Origin: a bacterium
GTDB lineage: Bacteria; UBA9089; CG2-30-40-21; SBAY01
Direction of reading: 5' to 3'
NCBI GenBank assembly: GCA_040757115.1
Contig: JBFLYA010000150.1
Span: 1-9,070 of the forward strand
Length of the DNA: 9,070 bases
The notes beneath the pieces were generated by a model, which made no database searches, was not told where the DNA came from, and worked only from the letters and a program-made list of their open reading frames with translations. Position numbers and translations under genes: made by a program. Numbering within the stretch: the stretch's first letter is position 1; each line of letters starts with the position of its first letter. This document shows, piece after piece, positions 1,943 to 9,070 of this stretch.

Positions 1943-2885
1943 TGAATCAAGAATAGGATTAGTTTATCATCCAGCTTATTTACTTCATGAGACCCGAGGG
2001 CATCCGGAAAATAAACTTCGATTAATAAAAATATTAAAATACTTAGAAGAAAGTCCAATTAGAGATAAATTATTTTATATTCCACCACGATATGCGACGG
2101 TGGAAGAGGTTAGTTTTGTTCATCCATTGACTTATATAAAAATGATAGAGCGTGCCTGCCAGACAAATAAAAAGTCGATAGACCCGGATACCCAGATATG
2201 TTCTAAGTCTTATGAAGTCGCACTGTTAGCGGTTGGTGGAGTAATATCAGCAATTGATACGGTGATGGAAGGGAAGAAGGTAAAAAATGCCTTTGCCTTA
2301 ATCAGACCACCAGGACATCATGCCGAACCTAATAAAGGAATGGGATTTTGTATATTTAATAATATTGCAATTGGCGCAAAATATGCCCAGAAGAAATATG
2401 GTCTTAAAAAAATACTGATTATTGACTTTGATGTCCATCACGGAAATGGAACACAATTAGTTTTTTATGATGACCCGGGTGTATTATATGGTTCTATTCA
2501 TCAATATCCATTTTATCCGGGCACAGGGACTCAATTAGAAAAAGGCGAGGGTAAAGGAGAAGGATTTACTATCAATATTCCTCTTCCGGCTAAAAGTGGT
2601 GATTTAGAGTATATTCAGGCATTCAAAAATTACATACAACCACAAAGTTTAGAGTTTAACCCGGAGTTAGTTTTAGTTTCTGCGGGATTTGATGCACATA
2701 AAGATGACCCGATTGGCGGTATGAAGTTAACTACGGAAGGTTATAAAAATCTGGCAAAGATGATTTGTGAGATAGCGGAACAATGTTGCGAAGGTAAAAT
2801 CGTCTCCTGTCTGGAGGGAGGTTATAATTTAGAGGTATTGCCTGTTCTTGTAGAAGAATATCTATTAGAGATGTTGAATTATTAG
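1929..2885 (+). CDS. Histone deacetylase family (acetoin-utilisation type) amidohydrolase
   Basis: This 318-residue protein is a full-length arginase/deacetylase-fold enzyme. Visible motifs are RPPGHHAEP (126-134, catalytic H130 and H131), IDFDVHHGNGT (165-175, zinc ligands D168 and H170), SAGFDAHKDDP (251-261, zinc ligand D255) and CLEGGYN (294-300, catalytic Y299). All catalytic and metal residues are present. Bacterial members remove acetyl groups from protein lysines, polyamines or other acylated amines in the cytoplasm; the substrate cannot be told from sequence. The start is GTG at 1929 with GGAG at 1918-1921, seven bases upstream; a first ATG at 1927 is out of frame. It overlaps the phosphodiesterase gene, so the two form one short operon from the promoter at 1389. 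Confidence 0.92.
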   Translation: MKKNNESRIGLVYHPAYLLHETRGHPENKLRLIKILKYLEESPIRDKLFYIPPRYATVEEVSFVHPLTYIKMIERACQTNKKSIDPDTQICSKSYEVALLAVGGVISAIDTVMEGKKVKNAFALIRPPGHHAEPNKGMGFCIFNNIAIGAKYAQKKYGLKKILIIDFDVHHGNGTQLVFYDDPGVLYGSIHQYPFYPGTGTQLEKGEGKGEGFTINIPLPAKSGDLEYIQAFKNYIQPQSLEFNPELVLVSAGFDAHKDDPIGGMKLTTEGYKNLAKMICEIAEQCCEGKIVSCLEGGYNLEVLPVLVEEYLLEMLNY

Positions 2886-2909
2886 GGGGAATAATAAGTA
2901 ATATAAAAA

Positions 2910-3200
2910 GTAACTATTCACCCTATAGGAAAGTAGGAGAGTAGGGAAGTAGGAAAGGGAAAGAAAATGAATGAGAAGTTATAAGGGAAAAGGGGAAAAA
3001 CAGGGGAAAATGGGAAAAGAAAAAAGGAAATCACTTTTACCCTTTTCCCCAATTTTCCATTTTCCCTTTATTACACACTGAGCACTTACAAAATCTTAAT
3101 TTATGCCGTTGTTGAGTATAGTATGAAGTATTTTCCCCTCTTCCTACTTCCTACTTTCCTACTTCCTACTTCCTACTTGCTTGGTATGCTGAATAGTTAC
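2910..3200. mobile_element. MITE-like element E with 8-bp target duplication
   Basis: The ends are GTAACTATTCA (2910-2920) and TGAATAGTTAC (3190-3200), perfect 11-base inverted repeats. TATAAAAA occurs directly outside both ends (2902-2909 and 3201-3208), an exact 8-bp target duplication. The body is nested: an outer pair of arms of AGTAGGAAG repeats (about 2925-2960) facing CTTCCTACTTCCTAC repeats (about 3139-3180), and an inner pair of GGGGAAAA repeats (about 2988-3020) facing TTTTCCCC repeats (about 3040-3067). The centre (3070-3130) is unique sequence. No gene is present. It separates the deacetylase gene from the PorV-like gene. Confidence 0.9.
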
Positions 3201-5162: not shown

Positions 5163-5399
5163 GTAACCGTTCAGGCTATATATCAAAAGTGTAAGAAAGG
5201 GGATAAGGAGATAAGAGTGATATGGAGATAAGATAATAGAAATAGATTGAAATTTATAGAAATAGGTAGAAATTGATTGTGGAAAACAACAAATTTCCAT
5301 AAATTTCTATTAGTTTCTATTAATTTCAATTTTTTTAATAATATCTCCCTATCTCCTTAATCTCCACATCTCCTTTTGTTACACCACCTGAACGCTTAC
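5163..5399. mobile_element. MITE-like element F, diverged ends
   Basis: GTAACCGTTCAGG (5163-5175) pairs with CCTGAACGCTTAC (5387-5399) at 12 of 13 positions. Further in, GTGTAAGAAAGG (about 5190-5200) faces CCTTTTGTTACAC (5373-5384), GGAGATAAG repeats (5205-5235) face TATCTCC repeats (5341-5375), and AGAAATAGAT-type repeats (5238-5278) face ATTTCTATTA-type repeats (5295-5330), giving a nested palindrome. The flanking octamers AATAATAG and AATATCTG agree at five of eight positions, so the target duplication has decayed or was never exact. No gene is inside. It ends 28 bases before the antitoxin start and may supply or disturb its upstream control. The remaining gap, 5042-5162, shows nothing coding. 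Confidence 0.78.
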
Positions 5400-5413
5400 A
5401 ATATCTGGATATT

Positions 5414-5420
5414 AAGGAGG
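5414..5420 (+). promoter_or_regulatory. Ribosome binding site fixing the antitoxin start
   Basis: AAGGAGG ends six bases before the ATG at 5427. The frame is open further upstream to 5376, but that longer start would lie inside element F and has no binding site, so the 82-residue form is preferred. Confidence 0.8.
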
Positions 5421-5426
5421 AAGATT

Positions 5427-5675
5427 ATGCCTTCACAAGTGTTGAGTAGTATGGAGAAAACAATCAGCCATTTATCTGGTATGGAACAGTTATGGCTGAT
5501 TGAGCAACTTGCTCATCGCTTACAAGAGAACCTGATGAAAACTCATGTGATTGAACAGTATGCTTTCGAAAGCCAACTTGCTGCGATGTCAATGGACCCT
5601 GAGGTTCGAGCTGAGTTGCAAAAGATTGATCAAGAGTTTACTGTAACGGAAGCAGATGGATTGGAGAGCAGATAA
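5427..5675 (+). CDS. Antitoxin of a PemK/MazF toxin-antitoxin pair
   Basis: This 82-residue acidic protein (starting MPSQVLSSMEKTISHLSGM) sits directly before a PemK/MazF toxin and overlaps it as TAATG, the usual layout of type II antitoxins. Residues 12-35 (LSGMEQLWLIEQLAHRLQE) are a helical segment seen in many small antitoxin-like proteins, and the tail LAAMSMDPEVRAELQKIDQEF...DGLESR (about 49-82) would be the toxin-wrapping region. It does not show a clear AbrB/MazE or ribbon-helix-helix motif, so the DNA-binding type is unassigned. The role rests mainly on position and size. Antitoxins of this kind normally bind the toxin and repress the operon; no operator is evident. Confidence 0.78.
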   Translation: MPSQVLSSMEKTISHLSGMEQLWLIEQLAHRLQENLMKTHVIEQYAFESQLAAMSMDPEVRAELQKIDQEFTVTEADGLESR

Positions 5676-6022
5676 TGACCATTAATCGAGGAGAAATTTA
5701 TTTTGTCAATTTGGATCCTGTGAAGGGACGAGAGCAAGCAGGGCAACGTCCAGTATTGGTTTTATCTGTAGATGCCATTAATAAATTGCCTCTTGTGGTT
5801 ACAGTCGTTGTTGGGACAAGAGGCGAAAACATTTCTCGTGATTATCCGACAAATGTCCGTGTATCACCAGAAGATAGTGGTTTAGCGATAGAAACAATTT
5901 TCTTATGTTTTCAAATCCGTTCATTGGATCCCAAACGGTTTCCTGATAAACCAGCTGGCAAGGTTTCAGGTAAGGTATTAGAGAAGATTGAAACAGCTGT
6001 TCGTTACTCCCTTGGGCTATGA
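5675..6022 (+). CDS. PemK/MazF-family mRNA endoribonuclease toxin
   Basis: This 115-residue protein matches the PemK/MazF (CcdB-like fold) toxin in full. RGEIYFVNLDPVKGREQAG (5-23) is the N-terminal strand-loop; QRPVLVLS (24-31) carries the conserved arginine R25 of the active site; SPEDSGLAIETIFLCFQIRSLDP (64-86) has the conserved SGL, T74 and IR-LD block. Family members cut single-stranded mRNA at short sequences, halting translation when the antitoxin decays. The ATG overlaps the antitoxin stop by one base, so the two are translationally coupled. The unit ends 47 bases before the first attC-like site, so it could be the 3'-most gene of a cassette, but the matching cassette start was not found upstream. 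Confidence 0.93.
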   Translation: MTINRGEIYFVNLDPVKGREQAGQRPVLVLSVDAINKLPLVVTVVVGTRGENISRDYPTNVRVSPEDSGLAIETIFLCFQIRSLDPKRFPDKPAGKVSGKVLEKIETAVRYSLGL

Positions 6023-6068
6023 TTGATGTCAAATAGGGGATTGAATTTGAGAAAATGCCCGAAGAACT

Positions 6069-6203
6069 TCAGATAACATGGGATAAACAAAATTGGAGGT
6101 TATTGTTCTCTTAATTTCTAAGCATCAAACAAAGGATGTGTGGTTAAAACTGTTACGATCTTTCCGAACCTCCAACTTCGTTTATCCCAAGAACGTTATC
6201 TGA
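6069..6203 (+). repeat. attC-like recombination site 1
   Basis: A long imperfect palindrome: TCAGATAAC (6069-6077) pairs with GTTATCTGA (6195-6203), TGGGATAAAC (6079-6088) with GTTTATCCCA (6180-6189), and TTGGAGGTT (6093-6101) with AACCTCCAA (6167-6175), all without mismatch. The loop of about 65 bases is unpaired or variable. The layout (outer core box, spacer, inner box, variable loop) and the GTTA-starting right core (GTTATCT, 6195-6201) fit an integron attC site, though GTTATCT departs from the GTTRRRY consensus. At 135 bp it is within the long range for attC sites. The 3' flank, GACATTCGGC, is the 5' end of the next cassette. Confidence 0.72.
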
Positions 6204-6241
6204 CATTCGGCTTGACAGATAGCATCTTCAAGAGCAATACC

Positions 6242-6247
6242 GGGAGG
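6242..6247 (+). promoter_or_regulatory. Ribosome binding site fixing the hicB start
   Basis: GGGAGG ends eight bases before the ATG at 6256. An in-frame GTG at 6247 overlaps the binding site itself, so the ATG is the likely start. Confidence 0.75.
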
Positions 6248-6255
6248 TGTTTGAA

Positions 6256-6468
6256 ATGGCAACACGAATCTTTACCGCGGTTCTCCACAAGGAAGAAAAC
6301 CTGTACGTAGCAGAATGCCCCGAAGTTGGGACGGTTAGCCAGGGGTACACTGTTGAGGAAGCCATCGCCAATCTGCGAGAAGCGACGGAGCTTTACCTGG
6401 AAAAGTTCCCCCTACTTGAAGTTACCAAGCCGTTGATGACCACTTTTGAGGCGGAGGCGTATGCTTAA
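6256..6468 (+). CDS. hicB: HicB-family antitoxin (short form)
   Basis: The 70-residue protein carries the HicB core fold signature: FTAVLHKEENLYVAECPEVG (6-25) then TVSQGYTVEEAIANLREATELYLE (26-49), that is, a strand pair, the conserved C-PE and G-T-EEA-NL-EA helix. It binds and blocks the HicA RNase. It is the short type that ends soon after this domain, without a C-terminal helix-turn-helix or ribbon-helix-helix, so by itself it may not bind DNA. It is placed before hicA and overlaps it by eight bases, in the antitoxin-first order. Codon use is richer in G and C than the genes to the left. Confidence 0.9.
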   Translation: MATRIFTAVLHKEENLYVAECPEVGTVSQGYTVEEAIANLREATELYLEKFPLLEVTKPLMTTFEAEAYA

Positions 6469-6688
6469 GTTACGCAGGGTATCGGGAAAAGAAACTATCC
6501 GTGCACTGGAACGCCTGAGTTTCGAGAGAGTGCGGCAACGCGGCAACCACGTGGTGCTTAAGAAACAAACGCCAGAGGGCGCTGTCGGATGCGTGGTTCC
6601 TCTGCACCGTGAGCTGGCGATAGGCACGTTAAGGGGCATTCTGCGGCAAGCCAGGATAACCCCTGATGAGTTTATGGAGAACCTTTAG
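6461..6688 (+). CDS. hicA: HicA-family mRNA interferase toxin
   Basis: This 75-residue basic protein has the small dsRNA-binding-like HicA fold: VSGKETIRALERLSFERVRQRGNHVVLKK (7-35) with the catalytic histidine in GNH (H30), then VVPLHRELAIGTLRGILRQARITPDEF (45-71), the conserved P-H---I--GTL--IL helix and C-terminal helix. It cleaves mRNA and is neutralised by HicB. The ATG at 6461 lies inside the end of hicB with GGAGG only three bases upstream, so translation is probably coupled to hicB. A longer TTG start (6446) adds five residues and has no support. Length is normal for the family. Confidence 0.9.
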   Translation: MLKLRRVSGKETIRALERLSFERVRQRGNHVVLKKQTPEGAVGCVVPLHRELAIGTLRGILRQARITPDEFMENL

Positions 6689-6695
6689 CGAACGA

Positions 6696-6783
6696 GCGCC
6701 GAACGTCAGATAACACGGGCTTTGCGGCTCACTTCGTTCGCCCAAATGCTTCGCACTTCGCAAAGTCCAAAAACGTTAGGCGC
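6696..6783 (+). repeat. attC-like recombination site 2
   Basis: GCGCCGAACGT (6696-6706) pairs with ACGTTAGGCGC (6773-6783) with one mismatch, and GGGCTTTGCG (6717-6726) pairs with CGCAAAGTCC (6759-6768) with one G-T pair. The right core, GTTAGGC (6775-6781), is a perfect GTTRRRY integron core. CAGATAAC (6707-6714) between the outer and inner left boxes is the alternative left core that belongs to the hicBA cassette. The loop contains further small stems (GCGGCTCACTTCG..., CTTCGCACTTCG). At 88 bp it is a normal attC length. It separates the hicBA unit from the restriction-modification unit. Confidence 0.78.
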
Positions 6784-6819
6784 AATTTCGGCTAATAGTA
6801 TGCATATGGAGGATACATA

Positions 6820-7641
6820 ATGACAGACAAATATGGAAGTCATGCAGATTATATGGAATGGGTGAAAGACGATGCAGATTCACGACAAAAATCTATAGAG
6901 AAAGCTCTACATGAGGCATTTTCTAATTTCATAGAAAAACGAGAAGTTGAAGTCATTGTCTTTTCGAGTATGAACGCTTTTGATCTTGCAGAAGCTATCG
7001 TTAGCCGCCCCCTCATTCTTAAACCACTTTTAGCTGCCTGTAATATTGCGGCAAGAGCAATCGAACGCGACTTATCTATCAAAAATTTAAATACCTATAG
7101 TCCTCATCTGAATGAAGATCAGGCTAAAGTTATTGCAGGATATATCAAGCCGTTTTTGCCGTCGTATTTAGAAATCCCCGCCCTCAGCCAGATTGATAGG
7201 GTTGCCTTTATTGATAAAGAAATTAGGAAAGGAAAGGGGCGGTGGGAAAAAGATATCCTTGAAAGTCTTAATAGGTTTAGTAGCTTACAGTTCCATAAAC
7301 GAATATTTACAGCTGGGGGCGAAGAATTTGAGCTGGATGCAGCCAGTCCAAAGTCGGGGGATATTAAAGTTGGAGTAGATATAAAAAGAATCGAAGCCAG
7401 AAGAGATATCCATAAGCGATGCGATGAAATCGTTAATAAAGCGGCCAAATTAAAATCAACTTTTCCGAATAGCAAATTTGGTGCTGTTGTGTATTATCCG
7501 TTTATTGAAGAACATATAAACATTCAGAATCGCCTTCGTTCGGATAACATAGATTGCGTTGTTTTTGCCTCAGAGTCAAATGAGTCCATCGAAAATGCGG
7601 TGAGAATGTTTCTTTCAACGCTGGGAGTATCGAGAAAATGA
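6820..7641 (+). CDS. Putative type II restriction endonuclease, PD-(D/E)XK fold
   Basis: This 273-residue protein lies just before a DNA methyltransferase and overlaps it as ATGA, the layout of a restriction-modification pair. The likely nuclease core is at residues 168-215: EEFELDAASP (acidic D173), then KVGVDIKRIEARRD, where VDIKR (186-190) supplies D187 and K189 of the (D/E)-x-K motif, then an Arg/Lys-rich helix and the strand KFGAVVYYPF (219-228). The N-terminal 150 residues are mostly helical and could recognise the target; RKGKGRWEKDILESLNRF (136-153) is the helix before the core. GGAGG at 6808-6812 supports the ATG. No controller gene is seen. The recognition sequence cannot be read from the protein. 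Confidence 0.78.
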   Translation: MTDKYGSHADYMEWVKDDADSRQKSIEKALHEAFSNFIEKREVEVIVFSSMNAFDLAEAIVSRPLILKPLLAACNIAARAIERDLSIKNLNTYSPHLNEDQAKVIAGYIKPFLPSYLEIPALSQIDRVAFIDKEIRKGKGRWEKDILESLNRFSSLQFHKRIFTAGGEEFELDAASPKSGDIKVGVDIKRIEARRDIHKRCDEIVNKAAKLKSTFPNSKFGAVVYYPFIEEHINIQNRLRSDNIDCVVFASESNESIENAVRMFLSTLGVSRK

Positions 7642-8525
7642 CCAGTCCTAAAACTTTACATCGCTTAATTCAAGGAGATGCTAGGAACCTTTCATTCATA
7701 CCAGATGAAAGTATCCACCTGGTTGTGACTTCACCCCCTTACTGGATACTCAAAAAGTACCGTGATTATCCCGGCCAGATGGGGCATATTGATGACTATG
7801 AGCAGTTCATAGAAGGCCTATCAAAAGTCTGGCAGCATTGCTATCGTATATTAGTCTCCGGTGGGAGATTGGTTTGTGTGGTTGGGGATGTGTGTCTTGC
7901 ACGAAGAAAATTCGGTAGGCATGTTGTGGTCCCCCTCCACGCAGACATAGCCGTAGCATGCAGGAAAATAGGTTTTGATAATTTGAATCCTATTATTTGG
8001 TATAAAATTGCTAAAGCTACATACGAAGTTAACAATGGTACCAAATTTTTTGGCAAACCTTTTGAGCCTAATGCCATAATTAAAAATGACATTGAGTTTA
8101 TCCTTATGCAACGTAAACCAGGTGGTTACCGTAAACCTACCTTTGACCAACGTCAATTGAGCAAGATCGGCGAGAAAGAGTATGAGCAATGGTTCCAACA
8201 AATCTGGAACATTCCGGGGGCGTCAACGAAAGACCATCCTGCTCCCTTTCCATTCGAATTGGCATATAGACTGGTTAGGATGTTTTCTTTCTGGGGAGAT
8301 ACTGTCCTCGACCCTTTCTGTGGAACAGGGACGACAATGCTTGCCGCAATAAAGACTAATAGGAACAGCATTGGTGTTGAAATTGATCCTGAGTATTGTC
8401 AAATGGCATTGGAAAGACTTCGACGAGAAGGACGAACTTTATACAATGAAATAGAGATAAAGTTTGAGAAAATGGAGGGGTCTATCAATGAGGGGAGTGA
8501 GAATGATGCCGAAAACAGCGCCTAA
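7638..8525 (+). CDS. Beta-class DNA methyltransferase, probably N4-cytosine
   Basis: The 295-residue protein has the permuted motif order of beta-class amino methyltransferases. The catalytic motif IV, TSPPYW (31-36), comes first, and the AdoMet-binding motif I, DPFCGTGTT (225-233), comes near the C-terminus, followed by NSIGVEIDPEYC (243-254). HPAPFPFELA (200-209) is the conserved segment before motif I. Serine in SPPY is typical of N4-cytosine enzymes, while N6-adenine enzymes usually have D/N-PPY; some SPPY enzymes are adenine-specific, so the base is probable only. Residues 120-175 hold the likely target-recognition part. It protects host DNA from the upstream nuclease. The tail after residue 270 is acidic and encoded partly by the attC-like site, since the stop codon lies in GCGCCTAAC. 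Confidence 0.93.
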   Translation: MTSPKTLHRLIQGDARNLSFIPDESIHLVVTSPPYWILKKYRDYPGQMGHIDDYEQFIEGLSKVWQHCYRILVSGGRLVCVVGDVCLARRKFGRHVVVPLHADIAVACRKIGFDNLNPIIWYKIAKATYEVNNGTKFFGKPFEPNAIIKNDIEFILMQRKPGGYRKPTFDQRQLSKIGEKEYEQWFQQIWNIPGASTKDHPAPFPFELAYRLVRMFSFWGDTVLDPFCGTGTTMLAAIKTNRNSIGVEIDPEYCQMALERLRREGRTLYNEIEIKFEKMEGSINEGSENDAENSA

Positions 8526-8760
8526 CACAGCATAAAAGGTTCGTGCCTTACGGCACCCACCTAAATCCTTCGCTAACGCTCAGGACTTCTTTTATGCTGG
8601 AGCCGATAACCAAAATGACGCAGAGCTCAAAGCCCTTTGGGGTTCGCATTTTGCGGGACACCTACGAAGTGGGGCACATGAAGTGGGTCGCGCTTGCGGG
8701 TCGGGGCTGAAGCCAAAATGCCCCTAAAGGGGCACTTCGCTCATCCGCACCACGTTAGGC
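8518..8760 (+). repeat. attC-like recombination site 3, long or composite
   Basis: The left core GCCTAAC (8520-8526) is the exact complement of the right core GTTAGGC (8754-8760). CAGCATAAAAG (8528-8538) pairs perfectly with CTTTTATGCTG (8589-8599), with small stems such as GTGCC/GGCAC (8543-8556) in the loop. So 8518-8605 looks like a complete attC that lacks its right GTTRRRY core (GATAACC is found instead). The remaining 8606-8760 has its own pairs: CAAAATG (8611-8617) with CATTTTG (8647-8653), CGAAGTG (8665-8671) with CACTTCG (8733-8739), and the GCCCC-TAAA-GGGGC hairpin (8720-8733). At 243 bp this is longer than usual single attC sites; a second, gene-less cassette fused to the first is possible. 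Confidence 0.6.
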
Positions 8761-8788
8761 GAAAGGGCAAGCAAAAAGGATAATCAAA

Positions 8789-8875
8789 ATGGAACCAAAA
8801 GACTATAAGAACAGAAGTTACCTTTCAGCAATAGAAGCAGCTAAATTTTTATGGAGGAGTGGGAGCAAACCTTGA
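8789..8875 (+). CDS. Small open frame of unknown worth at the start of the next unit
   Basis: An ATG at 8789 opens a 28-codon frame beginning MEPKDYKNRSYLSAIEAAKF and ending at TGA 8873-8875, with AAAAGGA (8773-8779) as a fair binding site nine bases upstream. It sits 28 bases after the right core of site 3, where a cassette gene would start. It could be a tiny real gene or the start of a gene broken by an early frameshift: a second frame (19 codons from TTG 8872, LNIEFRIPTTVDNSRLKTS) overlaps its stop. No family is recognised. Confidence 0.25.
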   Translation: MEPKDYKNRSYLSAIEAAKFLWRSGSKP

Positions 8876-8942
8876 ATATTGAATTTAGAATACCCACAAC
8901 GGTAGATAACAGCAGGCTAAAAACTTCTTGATAATATTGATA

Positions 8943-9070
8943 ATGAGCTTTCTCAACAAATGGATAGGTAAGGTTGATAACAATTATATTAGGAGAGAGC
9001 GAAAGGTAGTTTGGGAAGAAAAAAATTCTTTGACAACCCAGAAGGGAGATTTTTTGGGGTTAAAAGGGCG
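8943..9070 (+). CDS. Open frame running off the window, unknown
   Basis: ATG at 8943 opens a frame that stays open to the end of the window (42 codons, beginning MSFLNKWIGKVDNNYIRRER). The same frame is open back to 8910 with a TTG at 8928. There is no good ribosome binding site. The product is basic and unrecognised. It could be the first part of the next cassette gene or chance. The rest of 8761-9070 shows no terminator or RNA gene. Confidence 0.25.
   Translation, partial: MSFLNKWIGKVDNNYIRRERKVVWEEKNSLTTQKGDFLGLKG

Follow-up and report, generated by a model that had tools for sequence, protein, structure and literature searches.

Do the complementary ends of a hicBA toxin-antitoxin unit mark it as an integron gene cassette, and what kind of system would such a cassette belong to? 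The window, that is, the whole stretch of DNA analysed, is the complete contig C150 (9070 bases) of a 4.3-Mb draft genome (G000) in 462 contigs. All features described lie on the + strand, except for one intergenic repeat to which no strand was assigned. The preliminary description had placed the unit at 6195-6714 and had reported that its two ends are complementary at 16 of 17 positions. This complementarity was borne out: the start arm of the cassette (6195-6211) reads GTTATCTGACATTCGGC and the end arm (6698-6714; R'' plus 10 nt) reads GCCGAACGTCAGATAAC, with one difference, A vs G after reverse complementation, at position 11. Within the non-repetitive stretch 5400-9070, no other 16/17 inverted pair spans 200-2000 nt, other window pairs of this kind being confined to AT-rich intergenic repeats, and a comparable 16/17 pair was obtained in 1 of 150 dinucleotide shuffles. 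We consider it about 90% probable that positions 6196-6775 are a gene cassette composed of hicB, hicA and an attC-like site of its own.

The hicA toxin ORF (6461-6688) was recognised by PF07927 (1e-15; 58 bits, above the curated cut-off of 27). The ORF in front of it (6256-6468) is named as the putative HicB antitoxin by its position and a weak PF15919 match (5e-4; 20.6 bits, below the curated cut-off of 27), and no promoter pattern was found upstream of it. The upstream neighbour is a MazF/PemK toxin ORF (5675-6022; PF02452, 5e-25) preceded by a MazE-like antitoxin ORF (5427-5675), which was named from position and overlap with mazF only and has no family match. Although the mazEF unit ends in an attC-like site, no start of a cassette could be made out for it: a high-copy repeat of about 237 bp (5163-5399; GTAACCGTTCAGG...CCTGAACGCTTAC, ends read from the sequence) stands where that start is expected and hides the left edge of the unit. 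The repeat has inverted ends and more than 20 copies in G000 and its sister genome, and G000 is rich in MITE-like repeats.

Downstream of hicBA, a methyltransferase cassette (6776-8605) carries a 273-aa ORF (6820-7641), a putative restriction endonuclease from position only and with no family match, and an N6/N4 DNA methyltransferase ORF (7638-8525; PF01555, 2e-43; PADLOC MTase_II, 1.5e-67), the two forming a putative restriction-modification pair. One IMG/VR viral contig (L216) encodes a relative of the 273-aa ORF, 59% identical. A further cassette, of which only the start is present, occupies 8755-9070 and runs off the contig, which probably breaks at a repeat: the last 127 bases of the window (8944-9070) are present again in C265 (96%) and at the terminus of C337 (100%).

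One family of attC-like sites in a single orientation

The genome and its relatives contain many palindromes that follow the pattern RYYYAAC-a(c/g)-L''-...-ACTTC-L'-NNAAC-GTTRRRY, and a covariance model, R1, was built from an alignment of 13 of them, none taken from the window. The L''/L' stem of this alignment has 12 consensus pairs, and in 9 of these both partners are changed in one or more of the sequences. An attC covariance model had been proposed as a check of the cassette reading, and R1 returned three matches in the window: A1 (6071-6201; 33.6 bits, E 8e-6; fold z -6.4), A2 (6708-6781; 45.9 bits, E 1.5e-8) and A3 (8520-8605, R1 match 8520-8611; 43.5 bits, E 5e-8; fold z -4.9). All three lie on the + strand, and the next-best match in the window has an E of 0.25. 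Their lengths (131 nt, 74 nt and about 86 nt) are inside the classical attC range of 57-142 nt, and AAC in R'' and GTT in R' are present in each of them once an ORF-less element, E, is set aside. The three are shown to be one family of folded sites in a single orientation.

Site A1, borne by the mazEF unit, comprises R'' AGATAAC, L'' GGGATAAAC, L' GTTTATCCC and R' GTTATCT, with the crossover G^TT after 6195. Site A2, at the end of the hicBA cassette, again has R'' AGATAAC, and its R', GTTAGGC, is part of the next cassette. As integrated in the array, A2 folds no better than shuffles (z -0.84); its DNA has matches of 72-90% on other contigs and in relatives. Site A3, of the methyltransferase cassette, has R'' GCCTAAC, within which the methyltransferase stop codon falls, L'' CAGCATAAAAG and L' CTTTTATGCTG. 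Sites A1-A3 fell below the threshold of a first palindrome finder, which demanded that R'' and R' pair within each site; one reason is that the R'' and R' of an integrated site come from different cassettes. Rfam gave no attC or intron matches, only chance matches of microRNA type. The GTTATCT box at 6195 had been pointed out as a departure from GTTRRRY. It does depart from this classical consensus, to which GTTAGGC at 6775 and 8754 conforms, but it is unremarkable here, because position 5 of the R' box is T in about half of the cassettes of this array family.

Across the whole genome, R1 found 27 sites at E<=1 and 23 at E<=0.01, with long one-way runs on contigs C65, C96 and C224. The further sites that the preliminary description had asked for are thus present in the window and in the genome, as well as in 17 of the 19 genomes of the phylum. 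R1 gave no hit in 806 kb surrounding the IntI genes of further genomes, most of which belong to other phyla. The integron integrase gene sought on the 9070 bases of the contig is not there.

Between two crossover G's, 3' of the L' of A3, stands a shortened, ORF-less copy of element E (8606-8754; 149 bp). Longer versions reach about 260 bp at the equivalent place, again framed by G on both sides at the crossover, and orientation and crossover position are constant in 14 of the 14 G000 copies with a right end. E is also found in the sister genome, G001, and as a diverged copy in G008. Its locations in G000 are on contigs C55, C65, C84, C96, C154, C224 and C338, and a further one is L052:8065-8312. 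Two adjacent hairpins fill the element completely (z -7.35), the first resembling a cassette-arm pair (GATAACCAAAATG...CATTTTGGTTATC) and the second an attC stem, ending in CACTTC...ATCCC-G. E is perhaps, at somewhat better than even odds, a cassette that lacks an ORF and has an aberrant first box; the alternative is a mini-element targeting attC. Like ORF-less cassettes (PMC6557892) and attC-targeting IS1111 elements (PMC11187229), it sits exactly at the attC crossover in one orientation, but it differs from them in having no transposase, about 14 repeats in one genome and a first box GATAACC instead of GTTRRRY. A group II intron and a plasmid-borne or virus-borne element were rejected as readings of E, no match being found.

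Cassette boundaries, arms and strand choice

Since the R' of an array site belongs to the following cassette, a cassette start is expected to pair with its own downstream R''. Indeed, among 24 cassettes own ends matched at 11.0/16 positions vs 8.2 for swapped ends, a value of 11.0 being reached in none of 20,000 permutations. The hicBA cassette has the best own-end match (15/16), and the methyltransferase cassette reaches 12/16. The 17-nt complementarity of the hicBA ends is explained by the excised circle, the only form in which these ends adjoin and together make the outer stem of the site. Thus, whereas the ends described at 6195 and 6714 are real, the recombination unit is instead 6196-6775, from crossover to crossover, because A2 falls inside the cassette. 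Genes plus one attC between the G^TT crossovers of A1 and A2 correspond to the definition of a gene cassette. The cassette at 8755 is shared with contig C62 of G001, where it stands behind a different attC; identity is 101/110 rightward of the crossover and is lost 2 nt to its left. As homology breaks at the crossover, recombination has really taken place at the predicted boundary, and this neighbouring cassette is shown to have switched partners at exactly the predicted base.

G002, a genome from the same family, retains the PorV-like and PH-like genes, but an adenine-deaminase-like gene (named by eye from its translation) comes next; mazEF, hicBA and the methyltransferase are absent from this syntenic place, which holds no cassettes. 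The G002 locus closest to hicBA in sequence, at 68% DNA identity, is situated elsewhere, with a ptsI-like gene on one side and a sugar-isomerase-like gene on the other (both named by eye) and no visible attC nearby, and the mazEF relatives in G002 and G008 have no attC and no visible cassette. Such non-cassette loci are what would be expected if hicBA were an ordinary fixed chromosomal toxin-antitoxin locus between intergenic palindromes, but the hicBA of the window is part of an array, with an attC-like site on either side, and the corresponding place in G002 is empty; we regard a fixed locus as most improbable. It is also very unlikely that the 17-nt ends are the terminal inverted repeats of a small transposon carrying hicBA, a reading to which the gene pair between inverted ends and the abundance of MITE-like repeats in the genome would lend themselves. 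Transposon ends are constant, whereas the ends described here vary among cassettes and pair with their own partner; moreover, both fall exactly at the R'/R'' of attC-like sites found with an independent model, and the same kind of boundary recurs at the start of the next cassette. A cassette origin of the hicBA unit is thus supported, and the three findings named beforehand as refuting it (no attC model match, no further sites on the contig, and the same hicBA locus fixed in relatives with conserved flanks) were each looked for and did not hold.

Of 19 examined sites of the window's type, 18 have a contiguous L''/L' stem with no bulge, and the extrahelical base in L'' is absent from these sites. 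The other attC type of the genome is 132 bp long and has a classical extrahelical G (GTT[G]CAG); no long arms were found in its arrays, with 2.7/10 matches outside the box. The arms of the window's type pair across 17 nt save for position 11: there, an A in the start arm faces a C in the end arm in 13 of 16 cassettes. These 16 had been picked for good matching, and held-out contigs were therefore selected on the 7-nt box only; there, A/C at position 11 was found in 7/10 cassettes, with A at 29/34 starts and C at 26/38 ends. As A/C is kept in the held-out set, the single mismatch of the hicBA arms is a conserved feature. When the top strand folds, this A.C stays unpaired; its counterpart in the folded bottom strand is T.G, which forms a wobble pair. 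When circle sites were reconstituted, the bottom strand folded better in 16 of 16 cases, by a mean of 3.9 kcal/mol, and in 12 of 12 held-out sites. Pairing position 11 in silico halved the strand difference for hicBA and left it present for the next cassette, so that the wobble is at most one contributor to it, and never the sole cause.

Candidate recombinase of the arrays

Genome G000 contains one intact IntI gene on C39 (TIGR02249, 368 bits) and several decayed ones, and the contigs of several of its IntI genes carry 132-bp attC sites. Intact or broken, IntI genes were located on contigs C39, C30, C63, C118, C114, C116 and C324. A different recombinase is encoded on C154, with a 172-aa catalytic domain in which the arginine, HxxR and tyrosine motifs are present, and with a broken N-terminal part. 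Its best family is NF040815 ("XerA/integron integrase"), a partial match under the cut-off of that family, and it matches IntI in two pieces only, because the IntI-specific insertion before the HxxR motif is missing from it in the alignment. Its stop codon is followed by 126 nt and then by G^TTAGGCGAAATC, the start of the first cassette (arms 13/16), which ends in an attC-like site of the window's type. The gap between recombinase remnant and first cassette is 126 nt on C154, 81 nt on C62 of G001 and 96 nt on C31 of G011, with recombinase and cassettes co-oriented at all three loci, and the same TTGACA-N17-TATAAT promoter-like sequence lies upstream of the recombinase on C154 and C62. On this positional evidence, which comes from decayed copies only, the enzyme of the arrays could well be a XerA/IntI-like recombinase lacking the IntI insertion, a proposal that we place slightly below even odds. 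No intact copy of this candidate was found, and G002 has 14 sites yet no close relative of it.

The decayed XerA/IntI-like recombinases are at L023:1170-1814 (C154), L057 14423-14867 and L268 about 2550-3135. The C154-like recombinases of G006, G007, G013 and G024 were disregarded, those of G007 and G024 having apparent IS91-type transposase frames as neighbours. The contig DYDG01000068.1 (L106), deposited as Marinifilum sp. IMS_BF-2, agrees in length and in the position of IntI with G006, a genome assigned to this phylum, and its deposited name may be wrong.

Alternatively, the window sites might be variant attC served by the ordinary IntI of the genome, with the XerA/IntI-like remnants as chance neighbours or cassette cargo. 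The genome does hold an intact IntI together with several decayed ones, and on C62 of G001 the recombinase remnant has an attC upstream of it as well and could thus be cargo. However, the IntI genes here accompany the 132-bp attC type with its classical extrahelical G, and well-scoring sites of the window's type were found on none of the examined IntI-bearing contigs of the phylum, C39 having one weak site (31.6 bits). Furthermore, G002 combines its sites with no IntI above cut-off, and three remnants of one recombinase family each have their first cassette within 81-126 nt. We therefore hold service by the ordinary IntI to be doubtful, though far from negligible.

Under the proposal of a dedicated XerA/IntI-like enzyme, a tyrosine recombinase would cut G^TT on the folded bottom strand of the attC of the circle and join it to another site, the predicted junction of the hicBA circle being ...AAAAACG^TTATCTGACATTCGGC... 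The bottom strand would probably be favoured partly by the arms, through A.C / T.G at position 11, and not by an extrahelical G. The enzyme itself would be the recombinase without IntI insertion, remnants of which immediately precede the first cassette at the three loci. HicA should work as an mRNA interferase restrained by HicB; loss of the hicBA cassette would therefore be penalised and the array stabilised, an effect known from toxin-antitoxin cassettes in other systems.

Relation to known integrons and significance

Toxin-antitoxin and restriction-modification cassettes are common. A HicAB gene cassette is known from the chromosomal integron of Treponema denticola, and toxin-antitoxin cassettes are considered to stabilise arrays (PMC4909258). 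The cassette described here is likewise a hicA/hicB pair in one cassette with one attC, but it differs from the T. denticola case in the host phylum, in the attC family and in the absence of IntI from the contig. Clusters of attC sites lacking an integron integrase are termed CALINs (PMC8618304). With three or more attC-like sites that all point the same way, and no integrase nearby, C150 is a CALIN-like cassette cluster without integrase, two or more attC sites being called for. Unlike a CALIN, its sites are without the extrahelical base, and on a contig of only 9 kb the integrase could lie beyond its ends. A complete integron, with intI and attI beside the array, is absent from C150. Outside the window, C154, C62 and C31 resemble integrons with IntI in having a recombinase gene, an attI-like stretch and cassettes, but differ from them in the missing IntI-specific insertion, in a recombinase co-oriented with the cassettes and in the presence of decayed copies only.

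In classical attC sites, an extrahelical base in L'' decides strand choice, and arms usually pair over 9-11 nt (PMC2727003). The window sites share with them the R''-L''-L'-R' palindrome, the G^TT crossover, unequal spacers, lengths of 74-131 nt and arm pairing past the 7-nt boxes, but they have no L'' bulge and their 17-nt arms carry a conserved A.C mismatch at position 11. HicAB cassettes and CALINs are already known; as far as the literature searched goes, the array family, its sites that combine an unbulged stem with long arms containing a mismatch, and a possible recombinase other than IntI are new. We tentatively propose, at odds somewhat short of even, a distinct integron-like system of this candidate phylum, made up of a co-oriented XerA/IntI-like recombinase that lacks the IntI insertion, an attI-like stretch and bulge-less attC. 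With similar caution, the attI-like stretch would measure 81-126 nt and strand choice would be made partly via the T.G wobble in cassette-specific 17-nt arms. These arms may, at the same tentative level, pair fully only in the excised circle.

The IntI-specific insertion is regarded as the integrase half of the key pair for using folded single strands. The extrahelical bases of attC are regarded as the other half (PMC2727003). If the proposal is true, a cassette system without insertion and extrahelical bases would mean that folded-strand capture works, or once worked, lacking both, with strand choice encoded in the cassette ends. Such a system would provide a comparison group for integron origins, and cassette arrays would have been under-counted where searches demand IntI or a classical attC model.
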